Source: Chrysaora quinquecirrha (Eukaryota; Cnidaria; Scyphozoa; Semaeostomeae; Pelagiidae). From it: 64,000 nt of DNA. The stretch covers positions 991,535 to 1,055,534 of the forward strand of contig JACTAT010000041.1 of assembly GCA_014526335.1 (NCBI GenBank). The letters run 5' to 3'. Made by a program: the position numbers and the translations under genes. Positions 5,479-39,900 of the stretch are shown in pieces (position 1 is the first letter of the stretch; every line of letters starts with the position of its first letter). The notes beneath the pieces were generated by a model. It was not told where the DNA came from. It saw nothing but the letters and a program-made list of their open reading frames with translations, and searched no databases.

Positions 5479-5510
5479 ATTCTTGCCTTAACGTTATTGT
5501 AACGTTGTTA

Positions 5511-7525: not shown

Positions 7526-8134
7526 AAACAAGATGTCAACTCAAAAAGTACGTATGCATTGTGTTGCAGGTTTCATACCCTCCCTTCCCTGTACGCACAA
7601 GAACAATGGGAACCTACAATACCAACAATAGATCCATGATGCATGCTTGCAAATTGCTTGCCTTAACTTGATTCTCAGTTTATAATATTGCTGATTAATG
7701 AAAAAAGCAAACCAATCTACTTTTTCACGCTTTCTGTGCCTCCACTCAGAAACTTCTATATTGCAAAGACACCCCATTAAACCCACTCAGATACTGCTAT
7801 ACTGTAAGTACGCTCCGTTAAACTCGCTGAAAGACCTCTATTACCAAGAGCCACTGAACCCGCTCAGAGGTCCTCCGTCCCAGTTTATTCAATTTTAACA
7901 TGCGTATTCGTAATCAGCATGCTTTGAAGTGTAGGAAAAACATAAACTTTGGCTGTGGTGGGGGGATGCCAATTCGGGGGTCGTAGCTAACGACACTATA
8001 AGAGAATACCCGTACTTGCACATATGAGGATTCAACATAGATGAAAACGTTCATAGATGTTATTTCTCAGAAGGGTCTGTTGTGGGGAAGATTCCCGACA
8101 ATCTTCAACATTTACAAGACATTCTCTGTATTAC

Positions 8135-9605
8135 AGAAGTTTTCATGAGAAACCCGTCCTGTATATGCAATGACCCTCTTAGATATTCTTCGTAAATACA
8201 CGTCAATCCTCAGAAAAGGGCTTTTGGGGTGTTTTCAATATTTCCTATTTTTCAAGAAATTGTGTGTATTGAAGTAGTTTTCACGAGAAACCCGTCCTGT
8301 ATATGCAATGACCCTCTTAGATATTCTTCGTAAATACACGTCAATCCTCAGAAAAGGGCTTTTTGGGGTGTTTTTCAATATTTCCCTATTTTTTCAAGAA
8401 ATTATGTGTATTGAAGTAGTTTTCACGAGAAACCCGTCCTGTATATGCAATGACCCTCTTAGATATTCTTCGTCAATACACGTCAATCCTCAGAAAAGGG
8501 CTTTTTGGGGTGTTTTTCAATATTTCCCTATTTTTTCAAGAAATTACGCCTATTGAAGTAGTTTTCATGAGAAACATGACCTATATATGCAATGTCCCTC
8601 TTAGATATTCTTCGTAAATACACGTCAATCCTCAGAAAAGGGCTGTTTGGGGTGTTTTGCAATATTACCCTTTTTCAAGAAATTATGCGTATTGAAGTAG
8701 TTTTCACGAGAAACCCATCCTGTATATGCAATGACCCTCTTAGATATTCTTCGTAAATACACGTCAATCCTCAGAAAAGGGCTTTTTGGGGTGTTTTTCA
8801 ATATTTCCCTATTTTTTCAAGAAATTATGTTTGTTGAAGTAGTTTTCACGAGAAACCCGTCCCGTATATGCAATGACCCTCTTAGATATTCTTCGTAAAT
8901 ACACGTCAATCCTCAGAAAAGGGCTTTTTGGGGTGTTTTTCAATATTTCCCTATTTTTTCAAGAAATTATGTGTATTGAAGTAGTTTTCACGAGAAACCC
9001 GTCCTGTATATGCAATGACCCTCTTAGATATTCTTCGTAAATACACGTCAATCCTCAGAAAAGGGCTTTTTGGGGTGTTTTTCAATATTTCCTATTTTTC
9101 AAGAAATTATGTTTATTGAAGTAGTTTTCACGAGAAACCCATCCTGTATATGCAATGACCCTCTTAGATATTCTTCGTAAATACACGTCAATCCTCAGAA
9201 AAGGGCTGTTTGGGGTGTTTTTCAATATTTCCCTATTTTTTCAAGAAATTATGTTTATTGAAGTAGTTTTCACGAGAAACCCATCCTGTATATGCAATGA
9301 CCCTCTTAGATATTCTTCGTAAATACACGTCAATCCTCAGAAAAGGGCTTTTTGGGGTGTTTTTCAACATTTCCCTATTTTTTCAAGAAATTATGTGTAT
9401 TGAAGTAGTTTTCATGAGAAACATGACCTATATATGCAATGACCCTTTTAGATATCCTTCGTAGATACACGTCAATCCTCAGATAAGGGCTTTTTGGGGT
9501 TATTTTTCAAAATTTCCCTATTTTTTCAAGAAATTATGTGTATTGAAGTAGTTTTCATGAGAAGCCCGTCCTGTATATGCAATGACCCTCTTAGATATTC
9601 TTCCT
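8135..9605. repeat. Tandem array, 11 copies of ~141 bp
   Basis: A unit containing GCAATGACCCTCTTAGATAT, a CGTCAATCCTCAGAAAAGGG block and a GGGGTGTTTTTCAATATTT block recurs at about 8179, 8318, 8459, 8600, 8740, 8881, 9022, 9163, 9305, 9447 and 9589. Copies are mostly over 95% alike, with one or two diverged units (near 8575 and 9420). Because 141 is divisible by 3, some frames stay open across units, but I see no splice sites or ATG context that would make them coding. Confidence 0.95.
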
Positions 9606-15800: not shown

Positions 15801-16772
15801 AATTCTGTTTCCAGTTGACACAGTTCCTCAATAACTTCCTGGAGCCTTTTCGACCATGTTTCAGCTATAGTAAGGGTAAAACAACGCTATAAAATTCATC
15901 TGCAACCCTTCTGCTGCAATAATGTTTAGAGATCCTATGATTTGAAGAAAAAGAATAGATGAGAAAAGCTTACATGTGTTGGCATCAGCTTCATTTTCAA
16001 TAAAAACATCTTGCTCTGGTTCATATGAGGGAGTTTGTGAGTTCGAATTGTTATTTTGCACATCTTTTACATCTATAAAGCAAGAAATATACATATATAA
16101 GTAAGTTGATGTATAAGTAAATTGCTGGTACACACCTGCAAGTGTAAGACCTTTCTCTTGCTGACCTATTCCACAACATGAAATAGCTTGCTAATCTTAA
16201 AATTAATTAAGATCAAACAAGCAACTGGGGCTACTATCTGGCAGATGAGGATTTTTGCTAGCAAAAGCAGCTTCCAAACAACTCCTAAACAATTCTAATC
16301 TGAAATCCTAAAAAAAACAAACCTTTAGGCACAGACTTTCAAAGATCCTTAACACGATTTCCTTATTCTATTCTATCGTACTTTACTTTATTCTCTTCTA
16401 TCCTATTCTATGCTATTCTGTGCTATTCTATTCAATCCTATTGTGGTGCAGTTGAAGGAGAGAGAATGATCGATTCATGGTACCTACTATAGCTACATAA
16501 ATTTTGCATTTACCTGCAGAAGCTGCCTCATTTACTTGGATCTTACGTCGTTTATAAACTTTTCCTGGATTCTTCCATTTGTAATTTCCAGTTTGAATAT
16601 CCTTTTTAAATTCCACCAAAATAGGTTTCTTACTTCTAGGCTCGTCACTACTGCCAGTACGAGAATTTGATTTCTTTGTTGTTTCCAGTGACTTTGTCCA
16701 GGAATCAATATCTTGCATCGCATCTTCAAATGTCTTTTATCAGGTTTCTTCTTCTTTTTTCCTGGCGTCCAT
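9881..16772 (-). CDS. KDZ transposase-like protein with CxC cysteine cluster (copy A, has the 3' end)
   Basis: Exons by splice sites: 16514-16772, 15974-16072, 15484-15864, 15231-15338, 14488-14725, 14207-14385, 13987-14081, 13823-13905, 13274-13625, 12812-12929, 12442-12533, 12236-12356, 12007-12144, 11300-11533, 11023-11191, ~10620-10806, 10337-10401, 9881-10147 (stop). The third exon holds the CxC cluster (C-x2-C-x7-C-x2-C, then CSKCDTEIHKK and FHDRECW). Then come MSGYWPGSPQ, FGRAYREWAF, a C-x2-C knuckle with IHIDGHRKTYRF, LDETGLVVAGCRH, MCKYWPWLQR, SKVHSLDCQ and WGGTYQDAAALSTGESMEQF. These match the Kyakuja-Dileera-Zisupton family in order; likely catalytic acids are the D of LDETG, the D before IMCKYWP and the E of GESMEQ. 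The tail is acidic (Asp/Glu-rich). Frames break in exons 1 and 7 and at three sites shared with copy B. A transposase gene with this many introns may be domesticated; no TIRs were found around it. Confidence 0.8.
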
Positions 16773-16996: not shown

Positions 16997-19900
16997 CGTG
17001 TTATTGGTGCGATCTTTACGTAGAAAACAACAATTCAAGTCTCAGAAACCTCTCGTTTTTCTTTCAGATCTTCAACTTGCTTTTCGAGGAGTGAACTTTG
17101 TCTTTGTAGAAGGAGCAAAATGCACGCATTTCCTCGGCGCAAAGTACAAGTTCTTCGTTACAGCGCTCTAAGAGCACACACTTGTCAACGATCCTTTTCT
17201 TCAACCACTCTGGAACGCCTGTAGCTGCTGAAACAATGATAGCGATAATAATCTATTCAAGAAAGTGTAGCTAAATAAAATGTTTCAGACCGGTGAAGGC
17301 TAGATCTAAAGTACATAGAGCAAGAACTAAGAAAACAAAGTGGGATGAGAGCCTTTCCATTATATGAAATGTTTAGACATGTACAATTTTAGGAAAGTTT
17401 TAATGGTCTTAGGTCATGAAACATAAAACTCGAGACTAACCTTTCTCATCGTTCCAAGAAAATTTACCTATCATCACATCGTCAACATTAATTTCCACGG
17501 AAGCACTATTGTTTAGTTTCAAGATAGTATTATACTTCTCAACTGTCGTCTTTAACGTTACTTTGTTGGATGACATAGCTTTGCGCAGTTTTATTCTTTT
17601 TTGATGTGTCTTCAAAGAAGAGAAAGGCTGAGTAAACTAAGCTTGATTTGGATGCAAAATCATTGAAACGATTCTCTATAAATGTTTGAAACGAATGTCA
17701 TATCAGCTTATACGCACCTGCTAGCCGGGAAATTTCACAGTTTTGTTGGTTGATGTTGAGGTAAAGATGAACTATCCTAGTCTGAAGGAGTTCCAAATTG
17801 TGATCAACGATACACTTTTTCCATCACGTAAAAGTTCCTCACGATTATGACCCTCAGATAGGAGCTTCTTTTCCAACTGCATGAATCTTTTTTCCTTGGC
17901 AACGACATCTTTTCGGTGTTTTGAGATCATGTCATACATGTCCTCTTGTCCTGAAGAGCAAAGACATCGTTGCAGTGAAAAGGGGAAATGTTTTGGAAAG
18001 GCTAGAGCTTCTGTCTGAAAATCCTAACACTTGACAGAAACAGAATTCAGAGATAAATATTGTTTACGGAGACATAAATTAGTACTCAAGAACTATGCTT
18101 GTAAAAATCGGGAGAGGGAAACAGAACGTAGTGCGTCCAGTCACATTGAATCAAGCAGTAGGTTGGGTGTCTTGATACGATTCCGTCTTCCGATTTTGAG
18201 CAAAACATTCGAATTCTTGTACGTTCTTCCGATAGGCTGACCTACTTTATGGGCGCAACTTTTCAATTAAAAAACAATTAGTATGACCGAAAGTATACAA
18301 GTCTGACAAATATCAAGTAATCGAATTCAGAAATGTTTATGAACATAAGTGAAAAGAAAAAGCTTCTATCAAAATATCATGAATAAAAGAATAAGACTAA
18401 CATTAATCCTCATAATACTTTACCGATTACTATGCTACCAGCTTTATCAGTAGTTTGTGCGAAATTAGCGAGTGCTCTTGCTCCTTCAATTTCTCTTGAT
18501 AAGCGAAAATATTCTTCAACCTGATTGGTAATTGCAGAGGAAGTACCTCTTTGTAAAGATCCTGAACAATGAAAAGATTTTATGAGCTTTCAGGGTACAT
18601 CATGGAAAATTGTGAAAAGCAGAGGTAGATATTAAATGTGAGAAATCTTACGCAGAGCATTATTCTTTAATTCCGATTTCCATTTATTAACCATTTCATC
18701 GGTTATATTCGTTCTTGCTTCCAACATCAAATTCTGCTTTTCCTTGTTAAGTTGTTTCATTTTCTTCTGCGTCTGGATGAAGGGCAAATAAAATTTATTC
18801 AAAAGTGCCACCACCAACGTCAACAGTCATGTTTGACTTTTAAGAAAAATAATTTACCTTTGCATACTGGTTTGACAATGTTTGAGCAAGATTATCGATT
18901 TTTCTTTCGTTCCAGAAGCCAGTTCGTTCTGTTAAGGTGTCGCTACGAGCTGAAAAAAGAAAGTCTTTGAGTGGTACCAAATTTCCAAATTGCGAGAAAC
19001 AGCGGAAACACTTTTGAACACACTTTGGACATACAAAAAAAAGCTTTAAAGAATGTCTAAAACTAGATACTCTTGTTTCTCGCAATTTTGAAAGAAGAAA
19101 GCTTGCAATAAATAGCTATACAGTGAAAACATGGATACAACAGAGACGCAGGCGCATTCATAGACAATATATTTACTTATTAAGAATAGCACTAAAAGTT
19201 GTCTACAACAGCAAACGTTTAGTCAACCTGCAGCATTCATATTTTTCGTTGTTATGCCACATTTAGCTAAGTAGGAGAAGAATTGCTCCATGCTCTCCCC
19301 TGTCGACAAAGCAGCAGCATCTTGATACGTACCTCCCCACACCATCTACAAAGAGTAAAGAAACTAAAATATTTAAGATCTCAAAGACGAGGCTTATTCA
19401 AAAAAGAACAGATTATTGTTGAAATAATAAGAATAACAACAATTCAATTGCTAATAAAACATAGTGAAAACAATATAACTGAGCAAACTTAGAAGAAAAG
19501 TAATCGAATTTAGCCAACAAGAATACAGCAAAAGCAACTATAAAATGATAGCAGCAAGACATTAAAATAAGGTAATATCGTAAGAGCTAGTATTCTTCGC
19601 TTGCGGTATGAAATAAGGCAGCTAAAGGTTTAGCACTAGAAATGGAATCATTCTCATCCAGAAAGAAGCAACTGTGCAGAGAAAACTACCTGGCAATCAA
19701 GAGAATGAACTTTTGAATGTAAGACAGACAAGGCCTTTTTGTTCCAAGGAGAGGAGAAACCTCGGAAGTTTTTCAGCTACTCGTTGTAACCATGGCCAGT
19801 ATTTGCACATGATATCAAGCCATAAGAATTTCATGCGGTTGGTATTAAAGAGCAAATTATGCAAGTACAACGTATAACCATATTGTTCTCCTGCAAACAT

Positions 19901-22900
19901 GTTCACTGCATTCAATGCAATAACGTGACGACAGCCTGCTACTACTAATCCTGTTTCATCCAGTGAGGAGAAACTTTTTTGAGTGAGATCTCGCTGCCTG
20001 CCAATAAGATCCTCCACATAATTTGTCATCCGCGTAGTCCTTGAAAGTACAAAAAGATCGATAAATGTTGTATTGTCTCTAAGTCGTATATGTATTGGCG
20101 TTTTCAAAATCGACAAATTCAGCTTCACAAAGAATCAAAACTGTTTCGTCTGACAAGCATAAGAGGCATCATAAAGAATTGAAGAAAAGGAGTATATACT
20201 CAGATGTGGATCAAAATGCAACAGCCTAAAAAGTTACTTGTGGAATTTCATATTTCTATCAACATCTTTGTACTTTTGGCTTTCGGTTGTAATCGTTTCG
20301 GTCAGTTTCTGACACTCGTACTCTGAAGATTGTCAGACAAAACGGTATTTCTTGTTCAAAATTGCAGTGAATCTAGTAAATGTCTTGCATTCTTGATTTA
20401 CCTGGCTACCCGTTTTTTCATATATCTTTTTCATGTGCATATGTACATCGTCATCATTCACGATAAATGTATTTTGGTAAAACGGTTCGTCTGTTCCACT
20501 GAAAAGAATGATATAACAGCATTTTTGCAAGAAACACAGCGATTAAAAGGATTTCCACAGCAATTAAAATAAATTAACAGGGCTTTCAAAAGTGAAAAAA
20601 GAAGCAGCTAAACCACATGGTACCGTGGAACTTTTTTGAATCGATATGTTTTTCTATGTCCATCAATATGAATAGAATGGCAACAGTTAGAACAAACAGG
20701 GCACGAAAATCGGTCTTTCCCTTTTTCTTCACGTAGTGCTGTTTGACAGAAAGCCCACTCTCTATAAGCTCTTCCAAAAGAAGTAGCGTTGATGGCTCCA
20801 ACCTAGAAGCAAAACTAGATAGGTAGCAAAACACTAAATAGTGCAAATGAATTTGATACTAAATAGAGCATGAAATGCAGTTTTTATGTAAAGCAAAACC
20901 ATACCCGACCAGAAGCTTTAGAAGTTGATTCAATAGTTTTTACAAATGAAGACAACGATGTTCCAGGGAGTTATTACTGAGTGTATCCCAAAATTGTAAT
21001 AGTTCAGTTGAATAAAACGTCTCTGTGTTTTGAGGGCTTCCTGGCCAGTATCCTGACATCATCATAAGAAAGTGCGAACTGCCAGAAATATTTCCAGAGC
21101 AATTATTGCATTGAAAATATGTTTCGTTAAACTCAAGCGCCCTGTTAAAAATACAACAAAAAGACTATGGTTGAATAAAACATGATTTTTCTATACATTT
21201 AACATCAACTAAACCATGGTTTCACCCAATGTCAGGGATCTTCAGTGAAGCTAGACTATCATTGATTGTTCAAGCTTATTTTGTAGGCCAAGTGATATGA
21301 CATTTCATAATGCTTTAAGAAATGCTATTGCCTGTCTTCTTCAGCCTCACAGAATAAGCAAAACACCAAGAAGTCAGCTCCATACCATGATATTTAAAAA
21401 ATTGGAAATCTGCAGAAGTACTAAATAGAATGAAGTAGCATTGACAATACACAAACATCTCATCTCCTCATTACAGCTAATTGTGCAACAAACTTATCTT
21501 TAAATTCAAAACCCAAAATTCAATATATCACCATAACATCCTCTAAACCTTTGCTTTACCCTGCACAATCACCCAACAGTGCTTAATTGCTACAATACAA
21601 CACATCTAAGTAAACCAATCATAGTGAAATGCACTTAGTATAGCAAACCTTTTGTTGTTATGATAGTAACTATTTTGCTTGTGCATTGAGCTGAAAATTG
21701 AAGACCTTGATGACATTCAGGACAAGGAGAAGGAGGGAAAACTGGTAGTGGTCGAACTAGAAAAGATTAAGAAAGCAGATTTAAGAAGATTAACTTACAA
21801 TGATAGAAAAATAAGATCATGATAAAACAGAAATTTAATATCCTCACTTGAAAAAAAATTGAAATGGACAATTTGCAAGAAAAAGGTAATGAAAATCTCA
21901 CCAACTTCACATCTTTTGTTTTCTTCAATGCTACATCTATTTCCTAACGAAGTATAAAATCCATCAACCCAACATTCTCTGTCATGAAATGCCAGTTTTT
22001 TATGGATCTCGGTGTCACATTTGCTGCACAGAAGTTTTAGGCATGAAATGCACCTGATGCTAGCTTTCTCTGTTTGGCAAATTCCACAAACAGCTGCGCT
22101 TTCTGGGATACAATTTCTCACAAGACAATCATGAAAAAGGCTCTGCCTTATTGAAGCCCAGTTCTCATCCAGAGCTCGCTTTCTTGCCTCCCAATTACTA
22201 TCCTTTTTCACTGCAGGGAATTCTGTTTCCAGTTGACACAGTTCCTCAATAACTTCCTGGAGCCTTTTCGACCATGTTTCAGCTATAGTAAGGGTAAAAC
22301 AACGCTATAAAATTCATCTGCAACCCTTCTGCTGCAATAATGTTTAGAGATCCTATGATTTGAAGAAAAAGAATAGATGAGAAAAGCTTACATGTGTTGG
22401 CATCAGCTTCATTTTCAATAAACACATCATCTTGCTCTGGTTCATATGAGGGAGTTTGTGAGTTCGAATTGTTATTTTGCACATCTTTTACATCTATAAA
22501 GCAAGAAATATACATATATAAGTAAGTTGATGTATAAGTAAATTGCTGGTACACACCTGCAAGTGTAAGACCTTTCTCTTGCTGACCTATTCCACAACAT
22601 GAAATAGCTTGCTAATCTTAAAATTAATTAAGATCAAACAAGCAACTGGGGCTACTATCTGGCAGATGAGGATTTTTGCTAGCAAAAGCAGCTTCCAAAC
22701 AACTCCTAAACAATTCTAATCTGAAATCCTAAAAAAAACAAACCTTTAGGCACAGACTTTCAAAGATCCTTAACACGATTTCCTTATTCTATTCTATCGT
22801 ACTTTACTTTATTCTCTTCTATCCTATTCTATGCTATTCTGTGCTATTCTATTCAATCCTATTGTGGTGCAGTTGAAGGAGAGAGAATGATCGATTCATG

Positions 22901-24025: not shown

Positions 24026-25863
24026 ATGGAAGAATCAAAACCTGGAAGAAAAAGGAGTGATGACCTTGAAACTTGGTAAGTGTTACAAATTATATCTGGA
24101 AATTGATAAATGACAAGTTGCAACTTGTGACGGACAGTGAACAACTCACAACTCATGCATAATCATATCTCACACTGATAGTAGCCTATGAAGTGCACTC
24201 TATTGCTTTATTATGCTCATATTGCTCTTGGTTTATGCACAGTATCTTCATTGACAATCCACCAAAAATTTTATGCTTTTGCTTTTATAATGCACGCACT
24301 GTGGGTATTAACTGCAAACAATGTGTAACCGTACTTCGTGTGTCCCAAGTGCACGAGTTGCCATAAACAATTATGGTGACAACCGGGAGGGCACATTGCA
24401 TCAAGACAATGCTATTTTTTAGTAGACTGTTATGTAAATAAGGCCAGTTTAAAAGGGGCAAATGTTTAGGAGGGTTTAAAACAGCAGCAAATTTTCAGAT
24501 AATCTCTAAAATTTCACTTTTTCTTAACAAATACACCATGAAATGATTATCAGTAGCACAATAGAAGCAGTTGTTGGATATTTTTCATTTTCCTTAGGCT
24601 TTTGAGCCAATACGTTGAGAATTTGGATAGATTTGGAGACATGTGGAAACATTCCATACCCACGGATGAAGTTGAAAATGAATTGGCAACAAAATTCCAA
24701 GGCATATCCAAGAAGAAAATAACATTGTCCATAAAAAACTGTTCAGTAACTGTAAAGTAATGAAATATCGTGGCAAAAATCATTACTTTGGACTTCAGAT
24801 GATGAAGGTCAGTGAACAAAATGAGAGAAGTGCAATAGCCCAGGCATGTGCTGTAGCCCAAGAAAGCACAATAGCCCAGGCAAGTGCTGTAGCCCAGGTA
24901 AATCCTATCCCTAATGTTGAGCAAATTGTCAATGTCGGAACCCCTGCATCATCTGCACAAGATCACAGTAATCTTGTGCAATTAGGAAAATTATCTGCAG
25001 CCACTCAAGTCAATTTAAATGATTTTTCTGCATCTGTTAGTGTTCAAACAGACCCAGAAGATTATGATATTCAACAAGAGTGTTTTCAGCATTTGCCAAG
25101 GCAATTTTCTATTAGCCGAAGCCTTTTAGATGCTTCAGAAGAGGTAATTCTTGGAGAAGGTACCTTTGGTATGGTGAAGTTGATGAGTTTTAAAGGGCTG
25201 GAGGTGGCGGTAAAAGTATTTAAAGAAGAAAGTCATTACTCTTTGTCATCTTTGCGAAAGAGGATCTTAAACGAAGCAATAACGTTGCTGAACATACCAG
25301 CACATGAGGGCATTCCACTTCTTCTTGGGGTATGTATGACAAAAAAGCCGTACATGCTTGTCACACAGCTATGCACCTATCGTGGAAAGTGTATAACACT
25401 GCTCAAGTTGTTGCGAAAGAATCCCAGCTATTTTACAAGTGGAGAGTGGATAATAATATTTCAGTCCTTGTGCTATACCCTCCACCATATTCACAGTGCT
25501 GGCTTCCTTCACAATGACATAAAAAGTGACAATGTTGTTTTCATCCGCAGTGAAACCAAAAGATGGATCCCAGTTCTTATTGACTACAGCGAAAGCTGTA
25601 AGATAAAATCAGCTCCGGCCAGAACATACACACATCATCATGACTATCTTGCCCCAGACATTCTAGCTGGAGATGCCCCATCAGTGGAGTCTGATGTGTT
25701 TTCTTTTTGTATGCTCATTAAGAAGGTGATTCAGCACAGTCAAATTGATGATCTTGCAAAAGAAAGTCTGCTAAGAGTTGCCCATGAAGGCACTTCAAAC
25801 ACAAGTAGACCAGATTCAAAGAAAATTTTACAACTATTATTAAACATTCAACATGACAAATAA
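24026..25863 (+). CDS. Protein kinase with HND catalytic loop and DYS in place of DFG
   Basis: Exon 1 is 24026-24075 (ATG, MEESKPGRKRSDDLETW) and exon 2 starts at 24598. Exon 2 encodes LLSQYVENLDRFGDMWKHS and a KKKITLSIKN strand, then TAA at 24758, with ATG at 24760 overlapping it in another frame. The long frame then runs to 25863. One missing base near 24758 would join them. Counting from 24760: a short IAQxxAVAQ repeat (25-46), glycine loop GEGTFGMV (132-139), VAVK (K152), HNDIKSDN (251-258), IDYSES where DFG should be (D275), APD for APE (298-300) and SDVFSFCML. Lys, both Asp and Asn are kept, so catalysis is possible, but the usual Arg of HRD and the Phe-Gly of DFG are replaced. Similar HND-type kinases are, to my knowledge, expanded in cnidarians. 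Its stop lies 72 bp from the convergent chromodomain gene. Confidence 0.85.
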
Positions 25864-25935: not shown

Positions 25936-28900
25936 TTACTCTACTGGCATCAAAGCCAGTGCCTTCAATACAAGATCTGGCAAAAGGTTGTCTTGTGGTT
26001 CCCATGAATTAAATGCATCCCCCCAGTCTTTCCACTTGATATTGAATTCAAGCTTTCCTTGCTGATCTCTTCTTATTTTTAAGACCTTCTCCACCATCCA
26101 TAATTTCTCACTAGCAGCTATGGTGAATGAAACATATTTCTTAGCGATGCTTTTTGAAAAATAACCATCATTGTAATACTGCATTCACACTTAGAGTGAA
26201 ACCAGTTTAGATTAAACCAGTTTAATAAATGTTGCCTCCTGATTGGCTAATGTTAGAAAATGAATTGATTTGATTGGTGAAATTTTAACTGGCTTTGAAT
26301 AAAGTTGGTTTTAATGTGTCAGTGTTAAAGCAGAGATTCGTGAACAAAAATGTATGACAATAGGAGAAAAAGAAGTAAGAGTTTGGTGGTTACAGGGCTT
26401 GCATGAAATTAAATCCACATATAAATCCTGATGGGCTTATAAAAAAGTGGGCATATAAAACGTAAATTCTTGTTTTCAGTCGCACAAATATGCAAAGGCT
26501 CTAGGAGTGTATAAGTCTTACAGCTATACTTACCTTTCTTGTTGATCTTTGCATTCTTTGGTCCTTTAAGAGACAGAACAATGCTTACTATAAATTGAAT
26601 TACTATAGATTGAATCCGTGAAGTCCAATCAAAAGCTTTATTGTACTGCTGAAGCAGTATGGAGGGACCAACATCATGAACTCTACTATCATTAAAATAA
26701 GACCTCCAATTCTACGGAGAGCTCTTGAAATGAAGAAAAGCATTTCTAAAGTGTTAAAGAGCTTGAAAACATTAAGAAACCATACTTTTCTTCGCTTTAT
26801 CACAGGGCTTTGCTGCTGAAAAAGAAGTTCTCAATGAGCTTTACAGGACTAAATATCAATACTGCATGACAAGGGAAATAGAAAACTTACCCTAATAAAT
26901 TTGGCTGAAAGCCATAAACTTGTACGGTACATTGATAAATAGTAAAAGGTAAGACAACTGACATGAAAAACCGTAATAGATCATATACATTCAAGGAACA
27001 TCGCAATGTATGAGTTGACATAGCATAGATCTTATAACTAAAATATACTTACTACGGGAACGCTTGGACGATCGTCCAGTTGAAGCTAATAAAATATAAA
27101 CAAGTCAAAAATATTTTTCAGACAATCAAATCATAACATATTTAGGTCATAGAAAAGAGTGTAACTTAAATGCTATAGGCCCCATGTACACGAGCAGAAT
27201 TTCAAGCAAATGTGGTCATTTAAAGGATTACCAGACTTCCGCGTCATGTACATGGTCTTTTCCGTCAATTTTCTCGACTCAAAATTTGATCACACATCAT
27301 AGGTGCCGCTTAAGCAAAATGGTCATGGTCAGGAGGTGCTCAGCTTGCTTGAAAAAAGCTTGAACTATTGTTTCCCTAATCTTTATGACTGTTTTCGATC
27401 AACCTCGAGTAACCTGACTGACCAAAGCTTTGATTTGTGAAAGCTGAGTAGCCTTGTTTGTTGCCTTTGGAAATTGATATGCAGAAGTTGGTTATGCTGG
27501 TCTGCAATTAACTGCTTTCACAAAAATTGAGTATTCTGGGGCGGAAGCTTAAAACTTGATTCTCAAGTAAGTTGCTAATTGTCAAGTTGAGCAATTTGTA
27601 CATGAGCCATAGTCGCTTAGAGACGTTAATCTGTTGCAATTTTATGGTAACGTCAAATTAGGTCAACAACATACTTAAGATCGAATTCCAGGCAAATACT
27701 TAAAAGAGCGTACCTAAGACTAATGTGTATAAGGAATGGTTTGAAAATTGTGTAGGAAACAAACAGCTTTAATGTTTGAAGAAACATATACGCTATGAAA
27801 TGGAAACTAGATAAATAGAATATCTTAAATAAAGAGCAGAAATTCAAATTCAACACGGAATAGAGTGGCTAACCGGATACTGAAAGAGCAGGTTCACTAC
27901 GTTCAATGAAAGGAAATAAAATCTTGTTCAGTAAATATTGGAAGCTAGATGAATGGAATTACTTAAAAGCAGAGCAGTTATGACTATTCGATGGGGAATA
28001 GAGTTGCTTACCAGATACTGGAACTGTAGGTTCACTAAGTTCCACTAAAGAAAACAAAAGGTTGTTCATTATATATGAAATACTGGAAGTTAGATGAGTA
28101 GAATTACTTAAAAACACAGCAATTATAACTATTCAACCTGACATAGAGTTGCTTACCAGATACTGGAACAGCAGGTCCACTACGTTCAACTAGAGAAACA
28201 TTAAAAGCTTGTTCGTTAAATATGAAATACTGGAAGTTAGATGAGTAGAATTACTTAAAAACACAGCAATTATAACTATTCAACCTGACATAGAGTTGCT
28301 TACCAGATACTGGAACAGCAGGTCCACTACGTTCAACTAGAGAAACATTAACAGCTTGTTCGTTATATATGAAATAATGGAAGCTAGATGAATAGAAATA
28401 CTTAAAAGCAGAGTGATAATAACAATTCAACATGAAAAAGAGTTGCTTACCAGATACTGGAACAGTTAAGCCACTACAGTCCACTAAGAAAAATAAAAGC
28501 TTTTTCATAATTTACGAAATGCTGGAAGTTAGATGAATAGAATTACTTCAAAGCAGAACAATCATGACTATTCAACGTGAAATAGAGTTGCTTACCAGAA
28601 TCTGGAACTGTGGGTTCACAAAGTTCAACTAAAGAAAATAAAAGCTTGTTCCTTATATATGAAATACTGGAAGTTAGATGAATATGATTACTTAAAAGCA
28701 GAGCAGTTATGACTATTCGATGGGGAATAGAGTTGCTTACCAGATACTGGAACTGTAGGTTCACTAAGTTCCACTAAAGAAAACAAAAGGTTTTTCATTA
28801 TATATGAAATACTGGAAGTTAGATGAGTAGAATTACTTAAAAACACAGCAATTATAACTATTCAACCTGACATAGAGTTGCTTACCAGATACTGGAACAG

Positions 28901-31900
28901 CAGGTCCACTACGTTCAACTAGAGAAACATTAAAAGCTTGTTCGTTAAATATGAAATACTGGAAGTTAGATGAGTAGAATTACTTAAAAACACAGCAATT
29001 ATAACTATTCAACCTGACATAGAGTTGCTTACCAGATACTGGAACAGCAGGTCCACTACGTTCAACTAGAGAAACATTAAAAGCTTGTTCGTTAAATATG
29101 AAATACTGGAAGTTAGTTAAATAGAATTACTTAAGCACAGAACAGTCATGACAATGCAACGTGAAATAGAGTTGCTTACCAGAAACTGGAATAGCTGGTT
29201 CATTACATCCAACTAACAGAAAAAATTTAAGCTACTTGGTGATATACTAGATTGTTGAAAACAGATGACTGGAAGAGATAAAAAGAATTTAGAATAGCTT
29301 GCCAGTTCTACATGCAATTGGTTTAGGAAGTATACTACCAAGAATGAACAGAATAAAGGCTTAAATTTAAAAAAATGCTTCGAGTTAGATGAATAGAAAT
29401 TCTGAGACAAGAACTGTAATAAAGTCAGGCAACAACAGTTTCACAAAATGAATGGACATTACAATCGTCTTGAACATATTTCAACCTTGTAACATATTTG
29501 CTTTCACGTTTCACATTACAAACAAATTATGATGGTACAAAAATATAAAGGGGAACATATTCGGAGCTTGAATAAACCTTTCCTTTCAAGAATTAAATTA
29601 ACAAACCTGAACATATTTGGTACCAATGTTTTCCATTAAAAAACCAATTACAATGATTTTAAAATACAAAAATGGTATAATAAGTACACATACCAATTTG
29701 TTCAGCAACCTCTTGATCTAGTGGAAAAAGGAAAAGTGTAATTTAATGCAAAGATCAGTGATGTAAATTTCTGATTAGACAATAATACTAACAGATGTTA
29801 AAGCAAAGTGATGATCACAATAATCAAGCTTGAATTTGAAGAAGTGAACAGTTACATAGGTGCTTAGGCGTTGTGGCGTAATCCAGTATGGTCAGGATTC
29901 TCGCCCAGCCACGGTTATGTCACAGCCAGTTTCTAGGTCTTCATTAGTTAAACCTACTATCAAGATCCTACAAACTGGTGCTAAAACACAATTTTACCTT
30001 CACCTTCACAGTATGGTCAAGGGCAGGGTTGGTAACCATGAATTTATTCCTCTGTGTGCTGCAACATGGCTTCAAATAATTCAAAAGCAGAGACAAATGG
30101 GGAAATCTATTCACCCTGGCTGATAGACATAGGTACAAACACATTGCAATGCAAGACTTAAAACTTGGCCAGTGGTACCAGAAGGCCCAAATGGAAATCT
30201 ACATAAGAAACACAGTATATGACTAAACAGTTTTATTGTCTTTATTTGACCTTTTCAACTCTCATAATTTTAAATATTTTTAATGTTTTTAAAGAGACAG
30301 AAAACAGGGAAGTAACCATGTGACACATACATACCATCTGAGTCTGCATCATCTTCATCTAGAAAAATCCAGTCCATAGTTAACTACAAATTTAGTTAAG
30401 AAGATATACCTTAATGCTATACAATTTACCATGTATCATAGGATAGACCAACATCAATTTCATTTAAATGTATAATTTCACCAGCCATCCCAATTCTCAA
30501 ATTCTAGATGTGGTTTACTCTATTGGAGGTGCTCTGGCGTGAAGGTGCTGTGGCGTCGTGGTGTAATCCAGCTGACTCGTGGTGTCAGAAGCTCAGTGTG
30601 GTCAGGGTTCGAGCCCAGCCACGGTAGCGTCACAGCCAGGGTCGAGGTCTCGATTAGTTAACCCATTAGGTACTGAGATCCTAGCGACTTGCGCTAAAAC
30701 ACCATTTCACCTTTCACCTATTGGAGCTCTTCAGTGACATGTGTGAGAATAGATATTAAATTATTCATATAAGGTTGAATGCGAGTTTGTGCTCATGACA
30801 TGTGAGCTTAACTGGTACTTTAAGCCAGGTACCAACCACACATAGTAATTTAAATGCAAAATTCAAACATTGAGGGAAAGAATTTCACATATTAATTCAG
30901 GAATATCAATATGAAATAGGACTATAATCATGATGCAAATTTTGCAATTACAAAACAAAATTCAGATACATACTCATCTGCTCTGGTCTTCTGTTCTTAT
31001 TATCTAAAAGCACAATGAGATTAGTAGAAGGGCTTAAAAGGCTTGAAATTTGAATTCTTTTTGCAGCAATATGTCAGGATTGCTCAGTTGAGCTCAACGA
31101 GAAAGGACCAGAAAAAAGATAATATTCCAGTGCATTACCCTAAGATTTGGATGTTTGCTTTCATTGACAAGATTTCAGTTCCCTTCAATAAGTAATTTAA
31201 TCTTAGGTACTAGCAATTTTCAGTTTGTGTGCTATTTACATTGTATTAATTTCTCATACCAATTTTCTAATCTTCCCTGGATTATTGTTACTGCAAGTTA
31301 GTTTGTTAATTGTTTGTATTAGTTTAAATGAAAAATTGTATGTGGTGAATTTAAAATATATGATATTGAACTAAAGTTTTTTGTATTAGTTGCATTTGAA
31401 CCACAGCATAATACTTTCACGGTAAGATCACAGTAGCATAGTGATAGTTTTAAGACTGAAACCATGACTTTGCTGGAATATTCATTAATTATAGCTGGAC
31501 ATTTATTATCAACTGGACATTTACAGATAAATTCAGATGACTAAGGATTTAATAGCTAATGCTAAAGAGGAAAACAGTGTAAAAAGACATATACCCTTCA
31601 TGTAACGCTCAAAAAGTTGGCAGAAGAGTCTTCCTCCTTCTGGTCTGCTGCTGAACGGTCCAGTCCCAAGGAAAGGAAGTGCGCCAGGGGTAGCGAAGGT
31701 TGACAGGCCAAGAGCACCATTTTTATGATGCTTTGCATACAATACCACCACTTCATAGCCATTGCAGTGGTAAAGATTCATTGCCTAAAATTTGATAATA
31801 AATTTCCATAAATACACAATATCCACCAACACAATAAAACAATATCCATTGAATATAGCACAACAAAATAAATTCCACTTCGATTAGATATTGGGATTGG

Positions 31901-33422
31901 AAATTCAGAAGATAAAAATTTAATGTGAAGCTATTCTATTAAGCCCACCTCTCTTATTAGTCCATCATCAAAAACTTATTGGTGAAGGGTGAATATGGGC
32001 AATTTCAGACACACTCTTCTATTTCAAAAGCAAATTTATGAAACACCTTCGCCTTTAGGGTTTTCCTGGGATTAACCAGGGTTTCCCTGGGTTTTCCTGG
32101 GATTAACCAAACACCTTTAGGGTTTTCCTGATAGAATTTAACAAATGATGTCACTAGAATTACTGTCCCCAATTATGCTTTGCTTTGCTAAAACTTTTAT
32201 TTCAGAACATTGTTTTTTATATTTAAATACACGCATTTTTTTTATAAGGAAGTTCGGCTCAGGGTCAGTACTGAAAATTCCTTAACTGATGGTGAAAATT
32301 GAGTACTCAATATTCCTTAGCAATTCCTTAACCTCTTACTTTGTGATTCTTAAAAACAACCAACGGTCAAGAAAATATAAGTCATAAAGGTTTAAGAAGA
32401 CGAGTAGAAATGAATACTGATTGAGAACCATTGGCTATAAGTATTGCTTGCTCTGTTAATTCAAAACTTCATTTTTTTAATCGAAATGCTAAGTTAAAGA
32501 AAAAGTCAGATTCCTTAGTAGTCTCCGGTTCAGTACTAGAAATTCCTTAAGTTTTTGCCAGCCCGAGTACTACCTTCCTTATAAAGCACTTCCTTATAAA
32601 AAAAAATGCGTGTAATGTGAATGAATTTTACCAGATAACAATGTATTGATAAGGTTAACATTTCAAAATACCCTTTTCTTTATCATGAACAATGTTTTAG
32701 AAATAAAAAATTTTCCTGCCACCTTACTTAATGATCTCTATACTAGCATTTAAGGGAAACAAGCACAATGTGTTTACCTTCTGCTGGAGACCAAATTTCT
32801 CCCTGGAAATTTTCTTTGGTTTAGAGCTGGCTGGCTTTCTATATTCCTTGGGTGCAACCAGCCCTATTCCACATAGCCTGCATAGCTTTGTGGCTATGTG
32901 ATACCTCTCACCACATTGATGACAAACCTAGATAACAATTTCGTAGGTAAGAAACTTTTTACGCTTCAATTAAAGACTGGATTCTAAACCCAAAATACAC
33001 AAGGCCATATCTAGGCATATTCTGCCTAGTAATATTAATAATCATGTGTCCTACCTTGCTGGGGGGACTTTTGAATTCTAGCCAGAGAAAAAGAAACACA
33101 TATTAATTAACATCAATAAAACAAGGAGATGGGCCTACCGTTGCTTTCTACAACAGCATACATAAGTAGAGTGAACCGACAATCAAAAGCAAAAGGGCGA
33201 TTCAAAAGCTGCGCCCAACCGGGTTTATTAATTCAAAAAGGTTTTGGCCTATGACAGTTTGTCAAACAATTTCAGACAATTACCAAGAAAATTGAAGCTT
33301 ACAAAAGCAAAGAATTGTAAGGGAACTAAAATTGGAAGGCAAAATATACCTGCAGTAGGATTTGAGGTAGCATCTGAAGCGGAGCTTCCATGTTTAGGCA
33401 TGTTCTCACTACTGGCCGCCAT
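25936..33422 (-). CDS. Zinc-ribbon/chromodomain protein with tandem 33-nt micro-exons
   Basis: Exons from the 5' end: 33350-33422 (ATG GCG GCC; an in-frame ATG also at 33440), 33055-33077, 32778-32927, 31595-31784, 30974-31003, 30335-30358, 29694-29717, micro-exons between 29212 and 27874, 27053-27085, 26786-26815, 26534-26563, 25936-26117 (stop). Exon 3 has a zinc ribbon (CHQCGERYHIATKLCRLCG). Exon 4 has the partner domain (YEVVVLYAKHHKNG, FERYMKG). Short acidic (DEDDADSD) and basic (ASTGRSSKRSR, AKPCDKAKK) exons follow. The last exon is a chromodomain: WMVEKVLKIRRDQQGKLEFN, then IKWKDWGDAFNSWEP. From exon 4 on every junction is phase 1. With nine intact micro-exons the total is 1086 nt, 361 residues. 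Likely nuclear, binding methylated histone or similar; that part is inferred from the chromodomain and basic linkers. Confidence 0.85.
27874..29212 (-). repeat. Tandem array of ten 33-nt micro-exons (unit ~146 bp)
   Basis: Micro-exons at 29180-29212, 29033-29065, 28886-28918, 28741-28773, 28596-28628, 28451-28483, 28304-28336, 28157-28189, 28012-28044 and 27874-27906. Each begins after AG, ends before GTAAGC and is phase 1 on both sides, encoding 11 residues: VERSGPAVPVS (four copies), VELSEPTVPVS (two), VELCEPTVPDS, VDCSGLTVPVS, VGCNEPAIPVS, and VERSEPALSVS in the last. Spacing is 145-147 bp (138 for the last). The copy at 27874 has lost its acceptor (AT for AG) and its donor reads GTTAGC, so it is probably dead. 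Intron sequence repeats along with the exon, so whole exon-intron units were copied. Confidence 0.9.
29858..30006 (+). mobile_element. tRNA-derived SINE, older copy
   Basis: Diverged copy of the element at 30529-30717 (shared GCGTAATCCAG, GCCCAGCCACGGT, GTCACAGCC, GATCCTA and GCTAAAACAC blocks). It lies in an intron of the chromodomain gene. Confidence 0.75.
30529..30717 (+). mobile_element. tRNA-derived SINE with 9-bp target duplication
   Basis: 189 bp flanked by CTATTGGAG at 30520-30528 and 30718-30726. It has an A-box-like TGGCGTCGTGGTGTAATCC and a good B box GGTTCGAGCCC near 30606, as in a tRNA-type RNA polymerase III promoter. The perfect target duplication says it inserted fairly recently. 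It sits in an intron, antisense to the host gene. Confidence 0.85.
32230..32612. mobile_element. Tc1/mariner-type MITE, family with CACGCATTTTTTTTATAAGG ends
   Basis: 383 bp between TA dinucleotides (32228-32229 and 32613-32614). The ends CACGCATTTTTTTTATAAGG and the complement of CCTTATAAAAAAAAATGCGT match. The arms both contain AGTACT...AATTCCTTAA-like internal repeats. No ORF. It lies between exons 3 and 4 of the chromodomain gene. Confidence 0.8.
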
Positions 33423-33911: not shown

Positions 33912-36900
33912 TCACTCAGGCTCATCATCTGGATGTTGTTCATTGTAGTTGTCAAGCCATTCTTGACTTGGCTCTTTCAATCCCTTGACATAATCACCAC
34001 CTTTGCCATCGATGTATACTTCAGCTGGATTTTCTGGCTTTGGAGGCTCCCTTCCAATAATCATCAACACCACCATGGCAACGATTCCAACAATCGATGC
34101 AACCTGTCCAATCACTGGGATGCATTCAACTTCAACAAAAAGCCCAATGAAACTTGTGAGTGTGACAACAGCAAATGATGCACCCTTAAAGAAAATCCCA
34201 AATATTATTAACATGCATTGCAACAATGTACGTTATTTTCAATACCTTTATGTTGGATTTATTAGCAACTGTGGATATTTCCCCATATGTACGACACACC
34301 CTTCCACAAGATGAAAACCAATTTTAATGGCCTACTATCCTCAATATATAACAATGCGAAGCTAAGAATTCCTTCACCAAAGTAAGAAGCAAAAACAATA
34401 TCTGGGCGATCCCTACAATTACAAGGTCGAAAAAATACTCGAAATTTTTATTTTTTCATGAGTCCCTGTATCCTTGCCGAGAACATTGCCCTTTAAGGAT
34501 ATAAAAATTTTTTGTTGCTAGAGGTACTCAATTACAATTTCTAAGATAATTGCAAAGAAGTAAAGCGTACTCATGTCTAAGATTCCCTAGCAATACCTTA
34601 GCAACACGATTTTGCCACCTTAAACAACAGGAAGCCCCCAAATTTCACGATAAGAGAGTTTTGAGAGAGCTTGTTGGTCTGGATACCTAATTAAAATAAT
34701 CCTCTGAACGAACTTGAGACTCGCTCTAAATGTCTTGTGATGCACCAGTAGAAGACAAATGCCATATCTTCTTTTCAGGTTTTCCGTCAAGATTGAAAAG
34801 TTGCAGTTCCAACCCTCCCCCGTCTATTCTAGCTCACCAGAAATTAGGCCCTAAGGGGCTGGTTATATGGAAGAAACTCTCCCCTGTTGTCGGGATGAAA
34901 AACTATGAGGATAATTTTCCCTTTACGCGAGAAAATTGAAGTTTTGTTGCTCATTTAAAAGATCTTCTACCATAGCCGGAGAACTTCAAAACTGCTTTGT
35001 TTTAGCACCATCACCCGTAGTCTCTGTCTTACCAACAATAATAAAAACTTTGCTTCCAAAATGCTTGAATTACGCATGTGTATAACTCTAAAAACTGTCC
35101 CGGGTAGGCCGGATGAATTGTGTTGAAATGGAGAGAAATCATCCCGCCTAGCCGAGATCCCGTTTACATATCAACGGAACATCGCATGCCGGAAGAAATT
35201 TTATCACGTAACTCAAACGTGAAAAACATAAAGAAATAACAGTAGAGGCGAGATCTCGGCAAAATGTCCTGTCTCAGAAAAGTGGGACAATTTCTTCCAT
35301 ATAACCAGGCCCTAAGAGTAACTAGAACAGGGTGCCTAATCAAGTAGTCACTCAAAAGTCAGTGAAAAGCTTACAAAACTGTATTATAGGACTGTATATA
35401 TGATTAAGCCTTCATGGCTGTATATGTGTAATATCATGGATTGATATCTTAACAAACCTGAATGATGTCGAGAACCTTGACTGCAACAGGTGCACCATCA
35501 ACAAAATCTTTGTATATCTGAAATCCAATCATAACACAGGCTGCAGCACCAGCAATTACACCAACAAGTTTGGCGGCCTTTTCAGCAAATTTGAACATTT
35601 TGCCCCATTTTGATGTCATCACTTCTAGTTCACCCTCAGTTTTAGCAACAGCACTGGCAACAGCTTCATTTGTTGACAACTCAATCCCTGATTCGGAGAA
35701 AAGGGGTATATAAACTCAGTATAGAATGATGCACAATAGCTGCTGAAGATAGTTGCAATACACTCGCATTTAAGAGTGATATATTAAACTTCCCTGGCAG
35801 TTAATCTAGCAGTTGCAAGATACAGATTCCGTCATCCTCACTACTGGTATAAAACAAAACATTCGTAGTAAAGAATAGAACACAAAACCAGTTGAGGACA
35901 AATAACTTTTCCTTGAATAAGCGCAACCTTTCATATGAGAGGGGTTTGCTTAATGGAGTTAGAAAATAATTGCACTTATGAAGATCTTTGCACTGTCTAA
36001 ATGAGGTGCTTTTATGGACAAGAGCGTTTATTCTTACAAATGGGAAGTAGCAAGAAAAATTAATTTTTGATTAAGGAGATCGACAGTAAAGAAAGGTAAC
36101 AAATAGGTCATTAGCTTACCCTCAACAGCAGAAGCACCATCGGTTATCAAACTTCTGTAGCCAGTTAGAATCGCTTCACTATTTTTAGCTGTACCGAATG
36201 TCTTTATCCATTCCAATGTCTGCTGCCCTTTTATACAAGCTTCATCAAAAACTTCAAGCACTTTTGGCCCTGCTGTAGCAAATGCTTTTAATCCCATGTG
36301 AATTGTGTCCAAAACTACAACAGCTCTTGCTTCTGGAGGAAGTGTATCCCAAGCCATGAATGATGTAAGAGTACCCATAATTGACAATCCCCAAAATGCA
36401 AATGAAAGTGCTGAGCTTAAACCATTGAAAGCCTTTGAAATATTTGGATGAGCATCAAACCACTTTTTTGCTGACTTGAAAAGTTTATCCCATTGTACCC
36501 CAGTTTCACTGAAATACATATGAATAACATCAGTAGCCATATTGATCATATGTTCTACTCCTTTAGTTGCAAGTTCTTCCATTGTGATTCCATAAGCTTC
36601 TGCCAAATCTTGCATTTGTTTCCTGTATTCAGCAACGATTTCTTGAGTACCTTCATCTCCACCAGCTAGAATATAGTCAACAAGACCCTTTATCAAATCT
36701 CCCATGATACCAATCATGAAATCTTGATAATCTTCATTTCCATCGAAATACTCAGAGTTGATTCCCAATCTTTTTGTTAAAACTGTGCAATAGAAATCTG
36801 CAGCATAATTCTGGTCAGGATTCTCTGGCCGGGGTTTATCTGTAAGGCAGTAAAGGACCATGGATTGCTTCTGTGTCTTCGACATGTCTTGCTCTATCAC

Positions 36901-39900
36901 CGCTAGAGTGGCAAAGGTGTTCAGCTTATCTTCAGTTGTGATATAATCATACAATTCTTTGGCCCATTGCTCTCCACCTTTTGAGGAGTTAATGTAATCT
37001 TGAATGCGTGGGATTTTCTCAAGATAGGCTAGTCTTCCAAGCTTATTGTTTGCTTGGTTATAGTCAGGATCTTGAGCAAGGCAGCCCTCATCATTACCCG
37101 CCCAGTAATACAGCAACTTATTCTTCATGACTTGGTCAAACTTTTCTTCCAGAGAACTGTCAGTTGACAAGGCATTCATCAAATAAGCATTGGCCATACG
37201 ATTACCGAAAAACTCAGGGTATGCATCGGCACACTCCTGCTCAATGGTATTTAGTGTAGGTCTTACTGTGCCAAGAATCTTCTTCAGATCGTCTTCATCC
37301 ATGTCATATTTCATCACCTTTTGAACCAAAGTGAACGTCAGGTCATGTATCTCTTTTGGGTCAGGTGGTGTAAGCAAGAACAGCTCATCTACACTTAAAT
37401 CATTATCAGCTGATTTCTTCATTTGATAGGCCATTGGAGCTGGTGCAACTTCATCCGTTGTCGGCTTGAGATTATGCATGCTTCTCTTCAGGCATTCTTT
37501 CCTTGCAATGTCTAGCAACTCATCACTGTCATCTTGACCTAATCGGTCAAACTCTCCTTTCCACTCATATGTTTCTCCCTTGAAATCAGTATCGTCTGGA
37601 TCAAAGGTTATGCAATAGCCAGAGAAAGACGTGTAATCCCAATTAAACACACCATAGAATTTGACATATCCCAAGAAAGACATATAATCGGTTGGCACGT
37701 CTACACTTACAATCAAGTTGTTATCTCCATCCACAGAAAACTGTACTTGATTGTCTATTGGATCCAAAACTGGCAGATTGGGAAGGATGCTCATATTCGC
37801 AATTAGAGTTGTGCCTTCAGTGCCCATCTCTACCTCACCAGTGTCAGTCCATTCATCATCCGTATTGGCAAAAAAACTCTCTGGATCACTTTTAAGAGGA
37901 CCTTTAGAATGTTTGTAGATGCTTGTATGAGGACCAACAGAAAAATTAGCTGCTTGAATGGTACTCATGGCATTTCTTTCTCTCGTCAAGCAGACATATC
38001 CTCGTCCAGTGAACCAACCACCTCCAAACCATTTAATGCAGCCGTGTTCCCACATTCCGCCAGGAACTGGTCTGGTCCACAATATGTGTTGCTTATCTGC
38101 AAATTTGGCAATAGGAACATACTGTTTTCCAAGAAATAAATGGCCCTTGAGAAATGCCATCTCTGTCGGCATTGAATATGAGCTGGTTGTTGCCAAATCA
38201 GATTGATAAGTGAAACTGAGGCGCGGAAATGTCACGTCTTGTAAGTAAAGCTTTTCTGAACCTTGTTTTGTTGGATGCAAGTGGCGGTCGATGCGCTTCT
38301 CGCTAAGTGCAAGAATTGCTTTTGCAGGACCAGGACCCATTATTTTGCTCAAAGATGGCTCCAGTTTCTTTAGATGTTCTTGAACCTTTTTCTGTTCTTT
38401 GAATGAAACATTCTGCAATCCATCGACAACAGTTTGGATCGTTATCTCAGGGTAGTTCTGGCAAACCAGATATCCATTAGCATGGTAAGAGCGAGGTCCT
38501 TCTCTTGTGTGCACTCCATAGAACTGTGTACCAGCTGGATACATCTTTCCTTTAATGAATTGAATCTTAACCCATTCATATTCAATATTACCATGGTCAT
38601 TGTTCTTAATCTTTCGAACATAATCACCTGGAGTTAAACGACCAACATCCAGCCATTTGTTTTCTTTTCTTGCTGTGCTTGGATCGATTGCTCTCCAGCC
38701 ATCTTGTGTCCAAAATGGATGACAAGCTAAGAAAAAAGGCTCTTCGTCGTTGAAACCAAATGCCATTGAATCACGTTCAAGAATCACTCCTGCTTTCTCG
38801 GATGAGACGATGCCAAGATTTCCATGCCAACCCACGATTTTGTCATTCTCTTGCAAATGCTCAATTGTAACGTTTGTGTTATGATCAAGAAGGACCAACG
38901 TTCCTGCTAAAAAGCATCCCTGTTCATGTCCCCCGCCTGGACAGTAGACAGTAACGTTGTCTGAAATGCCTTTGCCAGTGCTGAGCTTAAGTCGCTTTGG
39001 ACCAGAATCCCGGGTGAGCCACTCTGCTGCCTTTTTTCCATAGGTCGTTTCAGTATGTGTATCATGCCAATTGAGGGCGATTGTGTAGTGGTAATACTCA
39101 TAATACCTCTCAAACGCTTTAGTGCAGGCTGCTTGAACTTTGTTGAAGTAAGGGTCGTTGATGAGCCAGGATGCCACAAAATCCAAATGATTATCTGTTG
39201 TTACAAATGCTAAAACAGGCTTGATCAGTTTTTCACTGCTGAAAGATGTCCATTTTTTTGCAATCTCATCGATCTTTGAAGATCCCATCACTTGAAGCAT
39301 GAAAAATTTCATTTTAGCTGGCAAATCAACTTGAGAGCCAAGCTGTCTTACAATTGTTCCAATGATGTAGACTTCATTTTGGAGAATTTCTTCTAGTTTG
39401 GGTAGCCATTTGTTTTTGTCGTCAAAATATTCTTTCATTCCTTTTCGAAAGAGATCTTCAGCCAGCAAACCTCTTCCCATTTCAGCACCATCTTTGCCAT
39501 GGATAGAATTCTTCCAAAAATCATCCGATTCTTTACTTTTTGTCGTACGATTGAAATCAAAAGAAGAAACCTGTTACAAAAAATTTTTCAGTTATTCAAT
39601 TAGGCTCGATGACGTTGGTGAACTAATGTGCGCTACTGTTTTATATATTCACTACTATGAAAGGGTTTTTTGTGTGATTTGGTGCATAGTCACAACTGAA
39701 GTAGGTATGTTAGCTCGATTTATGGATTTTTAGAACATATTGAAAGGGTTTTGGTGGAATGCGATGGTATCAATCCATGTATAGTCAGGCATATACCCTG
39801 CCAAGTGCCTGCGAAATGCAAAAAGCCCATAAATATGCAGAAGTGAATTTTGAATTCGTCGTAAGTCATGGCATCAAATTATGAACATGTTATGTAAAAA

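Follow-up and report, generated by a model that had tools for sequence, protein, structure and literature searches.

Tandem arrays of predicted micro-exons in a chromodomain gene family of the jellyfish Chrysaora quinquecirrha

Can the linker of a protein be lengthened or shortened exon by exon? The question is raised by a 64,000-nucleotide stretch of the Chrysaora quinquecirrha genome (contig JACTAT010000041.1, positions 991,535 to 1,055,534 of the forward strand; hereafter the window). Its minus strand carries, from 29212 down to 27874, a tandem array of ten units of about 146 bp each. Nine of the ten consist of an acceptor AG, a 33-nt segment and the donor GTAAGC, and each 33-nt segment encodes 11 residues in phase 1 (VERSGPAVPVS, VELSEPTVPVS, VDCSGLTVPVS and similar); no in-frame stop occurs in any of the ten. 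The original prediction of ten such units, nine of them with both splice sites in phase 1, was confirmed, on the minus strand. It also had the same AG and GTAAGC in every unit, which is correct for these nine; the tenth has lost its AG and carries GTTAGC.

Tandem Repeats Finder (TRF) described the array with a period of 147, 9.5 copies, 84% matches and a score of 1711, and the acceptor plus exon motif, with up to three mismatches allowed, gave 8 matches, where shuffles would yield 0.03. Among the nine intact exons, four are mutually identical and another two match each other exactly. Since these identities apparently stem from block duplication (28.01-28.34 and 28.74-29.07 kb), the units should not be counted as ten separate lines of evidence. 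The introns of this array diverge like its exons (0.120 and 0.112, respectively).

A predicted gene with a repetitive linker

The array is part of a predicted gene, here called W, as had been proposed for its phase-1 micro-exons: 20 exons (Table 1), with boundaries that are predictions, join into an open frame of 361 codons ending in a stop. The order is E1, E2, a zinc-ribbon-like exon E3, E4, a linker of 15 micro-exons (E5, E6, E7, R1-R9, E8, E9 and E10) and the chromodomain exon E11. All 15 micro-exons are shorter than 70 nt and divisible by three, and all junctions after E4 are in phase 1. It is therefore probable, judging from the sequence, that the array segments are spliced in as one 11-residue linker repeat each, and that unit number would set the length of the linker.

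The proposed mechanism relies on the geometry of the unit. Each unit is symmetric, i.e., bounded by phase 1 on both sides and a multiple of three in length, so any number of units would keep the frame, whether units are gained, lost or skipped. Because the unit includes its own intron sequence, unequal exchange would shift whole exon-intron modules. A symmetric micro-exon between short introns would thus lend itself to multiplication by unequal exchange with no harm to the gene. The stretch that links E4 to the chromodomain would tolerate changes in length and sequence, with splicing and frame kept and the repeat peptide free to change, and the same process would have acted on other micro-exons in paralogs of the family. 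Splicing of each unit would then be the premise, unequal exchange the cause, and linker length, or the reach of the protein, the effect.

The domains at the two ends of the linker differ in how well they are recognized. An 80-residue query holding the chromodomain, including about 20 upstream residues now considered noncoding, matched Pfam Chromo (PF00385) with an E value of 2.7e-11 and 43.7 bits (cutoff 25.1). E3 did not reach the Pfam cutoff for a zinc ribbon (DZR, 15.1 bits against 27.3). For the function of E4, Pfam gave no match with three paralog segments, a PDB profile search gave none with E below 0.7, and Foldseek with a model of the related Rhopilema protein P0002 (see below; mean predicted local distance difference test score, pLDDT, of 64) gave none at E <=0.001. 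A start of E11 at 26149 was rejected, as it gives no in-frame join; with the acceptor that ends at 26118, the exon keeps the frame and agrees with the related protein P0001. Just upstream of E11, a short segment at 26160-26340 has inverted-repeat-like ends and by eye resembles a miniature inverted-repeat transposable element; a similar segment was seen by eye at the same position in the paralog on contig C387.

This paralog (C-numbers denote contigs bearing paralogs; searches of the species' own genome covered 328 Mb) is a full one. C387 (locus L009) has, by eye, the same exons in the same order as W, including a first exon similar to E1, and its E3, E4 and chromodomain were matched by sequence search. 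Over E3, E4 and E11 (173 codons), the pair shows a nonsynonymous divergence (dN) of 0.060 and a synonymous divergence (dS) of 0.423, with a dN/dS of 0.141, and of 0.029 for E4 alone; between E4 and E7 the sequence, most of it intronic, is 82% identical. With a ratio of 0.14 in this pair, W is, on the evidence of the alignment, under constraint. E7 of C387 has lost its acceptor AG and could be skipped; this would keep the frame, because E7 is a symmetric exon. At the DNA level W and C387 resemble each other in pieces distributed over the gene, and each has a kinase gene beside it. In the window this kinase is an open frame on the plus strand, facing W at 24682-25863 (Pfam Pkinase, E 3.6e-24).

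The predicted exon order of W is further supported by proteins predicted elsewhere. Rhopilema esculentum LOC135685277 (P0002) and the eukprot proteins P0001 and P0003 share the N-terminus, E4, a repetitive linker and a C-terminal chromodomain. The linker of P0002 contains EIDDVARE three times, and its DZR score of 18.1 bits is also below the Pfam cutoff of 27.3. The linker of P0003 begins with 10-residue repeats (VEVQKENEQP, VEIHQENDEP), after which it seems to continue in a shifted frame.

Table 1. Positions, within the window, of the predicted exons of W and of the array units.
Feature	Position	Strand	Evidence
E1, predicted first coding exon (MAASSENMPKHGSS...)	33350..33422	-	open, donor GTATAT, in-frame join; start codon inferred
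E2, 23-nt exon	33055..33077	-	acceptor and donor, in frame; similar exon in C387 by eye
E3, zinc-ribbon-like exon (CHQC...CRLC), two CxxC pairs	32778..32927	-	conserved in C387 and C102
E4, undescribed conserved domain, 63 residues	31595..31784	-	at least 32 E4 matches in own genome
E5, 30-nt phase-1 micro-exon	30974..31003	-	splice sites, frame; counterpart in C387 by eye
E6, 24-nt phase-1 micro-exon	30335..30358	-	splice sites, frame; counterpart in C387 by eye
E7, 24-nt phase-1 micro-exon	29694..29717	-	splice sites, frame; sequence present in C387
R1-R9, nine 33-nt phase-1 micro-exons, one 11-residue repeat each	28012..29212	-	splice dinucleotides, frame
R1 to R5, single exons	29212-29180, 29065-29033, 28918-28886, 28773-28741, 28628-28596	-	
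R6 to R9, single exons	28483-28451, 28336-28304, 28189-28157, 28044-28012	-	
Tenth, decayed unit	27906-27874	-	AG lost, donor GTTAGC
E8, 33-nt phase-1 micro-exon	27053..27085	-	splice sites, frame; counterpart in C387 by eye
E9, 30-nt phase-1 micro-exon	26786..26815	-	splice sites, frame; counterpart in C387 by eye
E10, 30-nt phase-1 micro-exon	26534..26563	-	splice sites, frame; counterpart in C387 by eye
E11, last exon, chromodomain and stop	25936..26117	-	acceptor ATTCACCATAG, closes the 361-codon frame

Array types and unit number in the family

A search of the genome with the E4 peptide found at least 32 places, W included (31 at E <=0.01, and C235). Downstream sequence was scanned for arrays at 25 of these loci; C282, C368:317156, C368:223922, C257:1411278, C467, C367 and C715 lay outside the scan. 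Micro-exon arrays of at least four units follow E4 in 10 of the 25 (W, C387, C102, C424, C439, C290a, C290b, C357, C235 and C368), and L039 has two units within the stretch examined. No array was found in the stretch examined at the other 14 (L044, L045, C390 and L047-L057, the last being eleven near-identical copies of one element), which for 12 of them spanned only about 1.5 kb. This high-copy element, seen in L047-L057 and at 3495-10000 of L060, holds an E4-family gene that includes a CxxC exon; a few micro-exons of phase-1-like appearance were also seen in it by eye.

The arrays, which in the paralogs are located just after E4, fall into six types. W and C387 have a 33-nt consensus exon (VERSGPAVPVS and FERSEPTVPVS), C102 and C424 one of 24 nt (DDGINAGN), and C439 another of 33 nt (NQQSKSLKPAT). 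A 30-nt exon is found in the type comprising C290a, C290b, C357 and C235 (AIQENQTQPK or AIQENQTQAK), in the first array of C368 (C368a, DDIMETNVEQ) and in its second (C368b, DKTSKSSSLQ, with a stop in 2 of 17 units). When one unit per array was compared by blastn, different types shared only pieces of 9-17 bases, the lowest E value across types being 0.018, between the two C368 arrays. Such short matches between unlike types point to five or six independent origins of the arrays. In all six types the consensus exon has a length divisible by three and stays open in phase 1, which is also the phase at the end of E4; six lengths divisible by three would arise by chance with a probability of (1/3)^6 = 0.0014. 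A chromodomain was found downstream in W, C387, C102 and C424. None was found in C439 and C290a within the stretches examined, nor in that of C368, whose full gene was not searched for one.

Unit number was compared between near-identical copies. C102 has 25 units and C424 has 4, with a single base difference in 189 in E4; the matching flank pieces are 98-100% identical, except for one 230-bp piece at 89%, and C424 lacks part of the 5' flank. The four copies of the C290 type, on three contigs, show 98.1-98.9% identity in comparisons spanning 2.0-3.2 kb and have 7 (C290a), 25 (C290b), 17 (C357) and 4 (C235) units. With between 4 and 25 units in copies that are 98-99% identical, the number of units turns over far more rapidly than the sequence does. 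The expectation that repeat number can change at the DNA level is thus supported for comparisons between gene copies.

A broader proposal would treat the linker as a growth zone in which any phase-1 micro-exon after E4 can be amplified, as would have happened at least five independent times. Array length would then act as a rheostat that evolves rapidly, may differ between individuals, and sets how far the chromodomain lies from E4. We regard this extension as speculative, and rather less probable than its opposite.

Splice sites, neutral change and competing explanations

Exon boundaries were first picked by reading. A splice matrix derived from the non-array exons of W and C387 (15 donors, 17 acceptors) agreed with them in seven of eight array consensus units, representing five of the six types, and each of the seven exons picked by the matrix has a length divisible by three and is open in phase 1. 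The eighth, C368b, has a weak donor (GTTCGT), and the matrix favours a 25-nt exon. The number of shuffles, out of 300, that scored as high was 5 for W, 6 for C387, 18 for C439, 29 for C368a and 34 for C102. Both splice dinucleotides are intact in 9/10 units of W, 5/5 of C387, 25/25 of C102, 9/9 of C439, 6/7 of C290a (the seventh unit is one base shorter, 29 nt, with splice sites kept), 6/7 of C368a and 14/17 of C368b, and in all units of C290b (25/25), C235 (4/4), C424 (4/4) and L039 (2/2). In C357 they are intact in 14/14 units up to the end of the locus, out of 17 in all, one of which is 29 nt.

Splice-site, substitution and indel tests were done on eight arrays, with C424, C290b, C235, L039 and the last three units of C357 excluded. 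Pooled over these arrays, the splice dinucleotides show 9 changes, two of them from the out-of-register 29-nt unit of C290a, where the intron columns predict 24.7 (p=0.009). The truncated paralogs C109 and C285, in which sequence search found the chromodomain exon only and no E3 or E4, keep both sites in 1/4 and 1/3 units, respectively.

A number of results weigh against the view that these are exons in use. Changes from the consensus comprise 68 nonsynonymous and 25 synonymous ones, with 66.0 and 24.3 expected without selection (29-nt unit of C290a excluded), and stop changes number 3, with 2 more at the edges, against 4.5 expected. Exon indels are as frequent as those in introns (3 events against 3.5 expected); this test excluded 2/14 units of C357, 1/7 of C368a and 1/17 of C368b and had few intron windows in some arrays (3 for C368b, 5 for C439). 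For the W array alone, splice-dinucleotide protection is not significant (p=0.23). Chance look-alikes are common for C290a, C357 and C368b, where 65, 98 and 111 of the 300 shuffles scored as high. In C373, 3/3 units are intact and no exon of the gene was matched within 10 kb; unless the fragment is recent, this is hard to reconcile with a simple view that sites are kept by use. Furthermore, a control array in the window (51643-52883, plus strand, units of about 140 bp) carries ctttctag|GAACATGGCATTGACAAAG|gtaaat, a frame-breaking 19-nt segment that none of 300 shuffles equalled; both sites are lost in 3 of the 8 units found, and no E3, E4 or chromodomain match was found near it. Among the family members, C390 is a broken copy, the chromodomain of C285 has a stop, and several are multi-copy and resemble transposable elements. 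An in-frame TGA interrupts E4 in both C102 and C424, though their arrays keep the splice sites. Because of this TGA, and because no E3 was found in C424, these two arrays may have expanded in dead genes.

Since changes within the arrays look neutral, the repeat peptide appears free to drift, and the case for real exons is built on frame, gene context and recurrence and not on conservation of the repeat. The array pattern, originally put forward as what selection on a spliced exon would leave, gains little support as such a mark from these tests; the pooled protection of splice sites is only moderate. Strong splice signals can occur in tandem units without a coding repeat, so that frame and gene context carry the argument. 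In a second control array (8111-9603, 142-bp period, 10.6 copies), no convincing micro-exon was found on either strand of the one unit tried (108/300 and 263/300 shuffles as good).

The neutral test results are what would be expected of a neutral minisatellite that happens to carry an exon, in which slippage or unequal exchange, whether the unit is spliced or not, alters unit number with no consequence for the protein. The lack of significant protection in the W array, the large arrays in the stop-bearing copy C102 and in near-identical multi-copy genes, and the isolated array of C373 agree with this. On the other hand, a minisatellite would not readily account for the pooled splice-site conservation, for the finding that six out of six consensus exons have lengths divisible by three and are open in the phase that E4 dictates, for arrays after E4 in 10 of 25 loci, or for linker repeats in the predicted proteins of Rhopilema and eukprot. 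We consider this explanation, which is not fully exclusive of spliced linker repeats, a serious contender that nonetheless probably does not hold.

Alternatively, the arrays could be a property of mobile copies, with the E4 family spread by transposable elements and micro-exon growth a by-product of amplification. Consistent with this, one of eleven copies matches the others over 3.1 kb with at least 99.58% identity, two element copies are 99.8% identical over 6.5 kb, and the C290-type copies are nearly as similar on their three contigs. However, W and C387 match piecewise, together with the neighbouring kinase gene and with a dN/dS of 0.14, as expected of a host gene, and no array was seen in the eleven-copy element within about 1.5 kb after E4, or in L060, the one copy scanned further. 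This makes the explanation unlikely. Least probable is an alternative splicing switch, in which one or a few units are chosen to give variant peptides and not length: exons diverge more than introns in C439 (p=0.003) and in C290a (p=0.024, inflated by the 29-nt unit), but not in W, C357 or C368a, the difference is reversed in C102 (p=0.014) and leans that way in C387 and C368b (p=0.06 each; eight arrays, two-sided, uncorrected), and most W units are close or identical copies.

Other features of the window were noted. On the minus strand, a segment is repeated at 9.9-16.7 kb and 19.7-23.2 kb; its open reading frames at 15377-15886 and 21795-22304 encode an identical peptide, and those at 13238-13663 and 19697-20134 a mostly shared one. 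We take this segment to have a likeness to KDZ-type transposases. A 1179-codon open frame at 36034-39573 (minus strand) contains a stretch that presumably resembles a Hint/intein-type domain. On the plus strand, a predicted gene at 3240-5480 has CxxC pairs and a serine/proline-rich tail, with Pfam zf-tcix under its cutoff; by eye, it is possibly a distant relative of the E3/E4 plan.

Comparison with known systems

If the micro-exons of W are spliced as predicted, the closest known systems are the micro-exon genes (MEGs) of flatworms (Schistosoma, Hymenolepis), which share with W consecutive micro-exons divisible by three (PMC7653826, PMC10526429). Operationally (PMC7653826), a MEG has seven or more exons, half or more of which are micro-exons (shorter than 70 nt, with a length divisible by three), four or more of these being consecutive. 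W, with 15 micro-exons among 20 exons in a run of 15 (E5 to E10), numerically falls within this definition. In W, unlike in MEGs, nine micro-exons belong to near-identical tandem units of exon plus intron, whose copy number is variable in the family. Schistosome MEG products are described as secreted (PMC10526429). In contrast, the predicted W product has a chromodomain and no signal peptide by eye, its N-terminus being polar without a hydrophobic stretch.

In spider flagelliform silk genes, exon and intron are repeated together as a unit, and the exons are long. W resembles such genes in the tandem repetition of a whole exon-intron unit, and the similar divergence of exons and introns in its array would be compatible with the joint homogenization of both expected of silk-type genes. 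However, exons in the W family are only 24-33 nt, and the exon that was amplified differs from one group of relatives to another. Tandem duplication is also known for exons that undergo substitution events and are spliced in a mutually exclusive manner (PMC9741552); the W family likewise has tandem duplicates, but of predicted micro-exons in up to 25 copies. P0002 and P0001/P0003 have the same domain plan as W and repeats in the linker, with other repeat peptides (8 and about 10 residues).

The original statement that no gene of this design had been described needs to be divided. For the micro-exon part it goes too far, since W fits the operational MEG definition of PMC7653826; for tandem micro-exon arrays of variable copy number, no description was found in the open-licence literature.

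To our knowledge, most coding tandem repeats sit within one exon. In W the module is a whole micro-exon with its intron, so that recombination at the DNA level, and in principle also splicing, could change the length without ever losing the frame. With unlike arrays in one family, and 4 to 25 units in copies that are 98-99% identical, the birth and growth of exon arrays become directly observable, and the array series offers a natural set for studying how splicing handles dozens of near-identical micro-exons. If transcripts confirm the predicted exons, W would be a flatworm-type micro-exon gene in a cnidarian.

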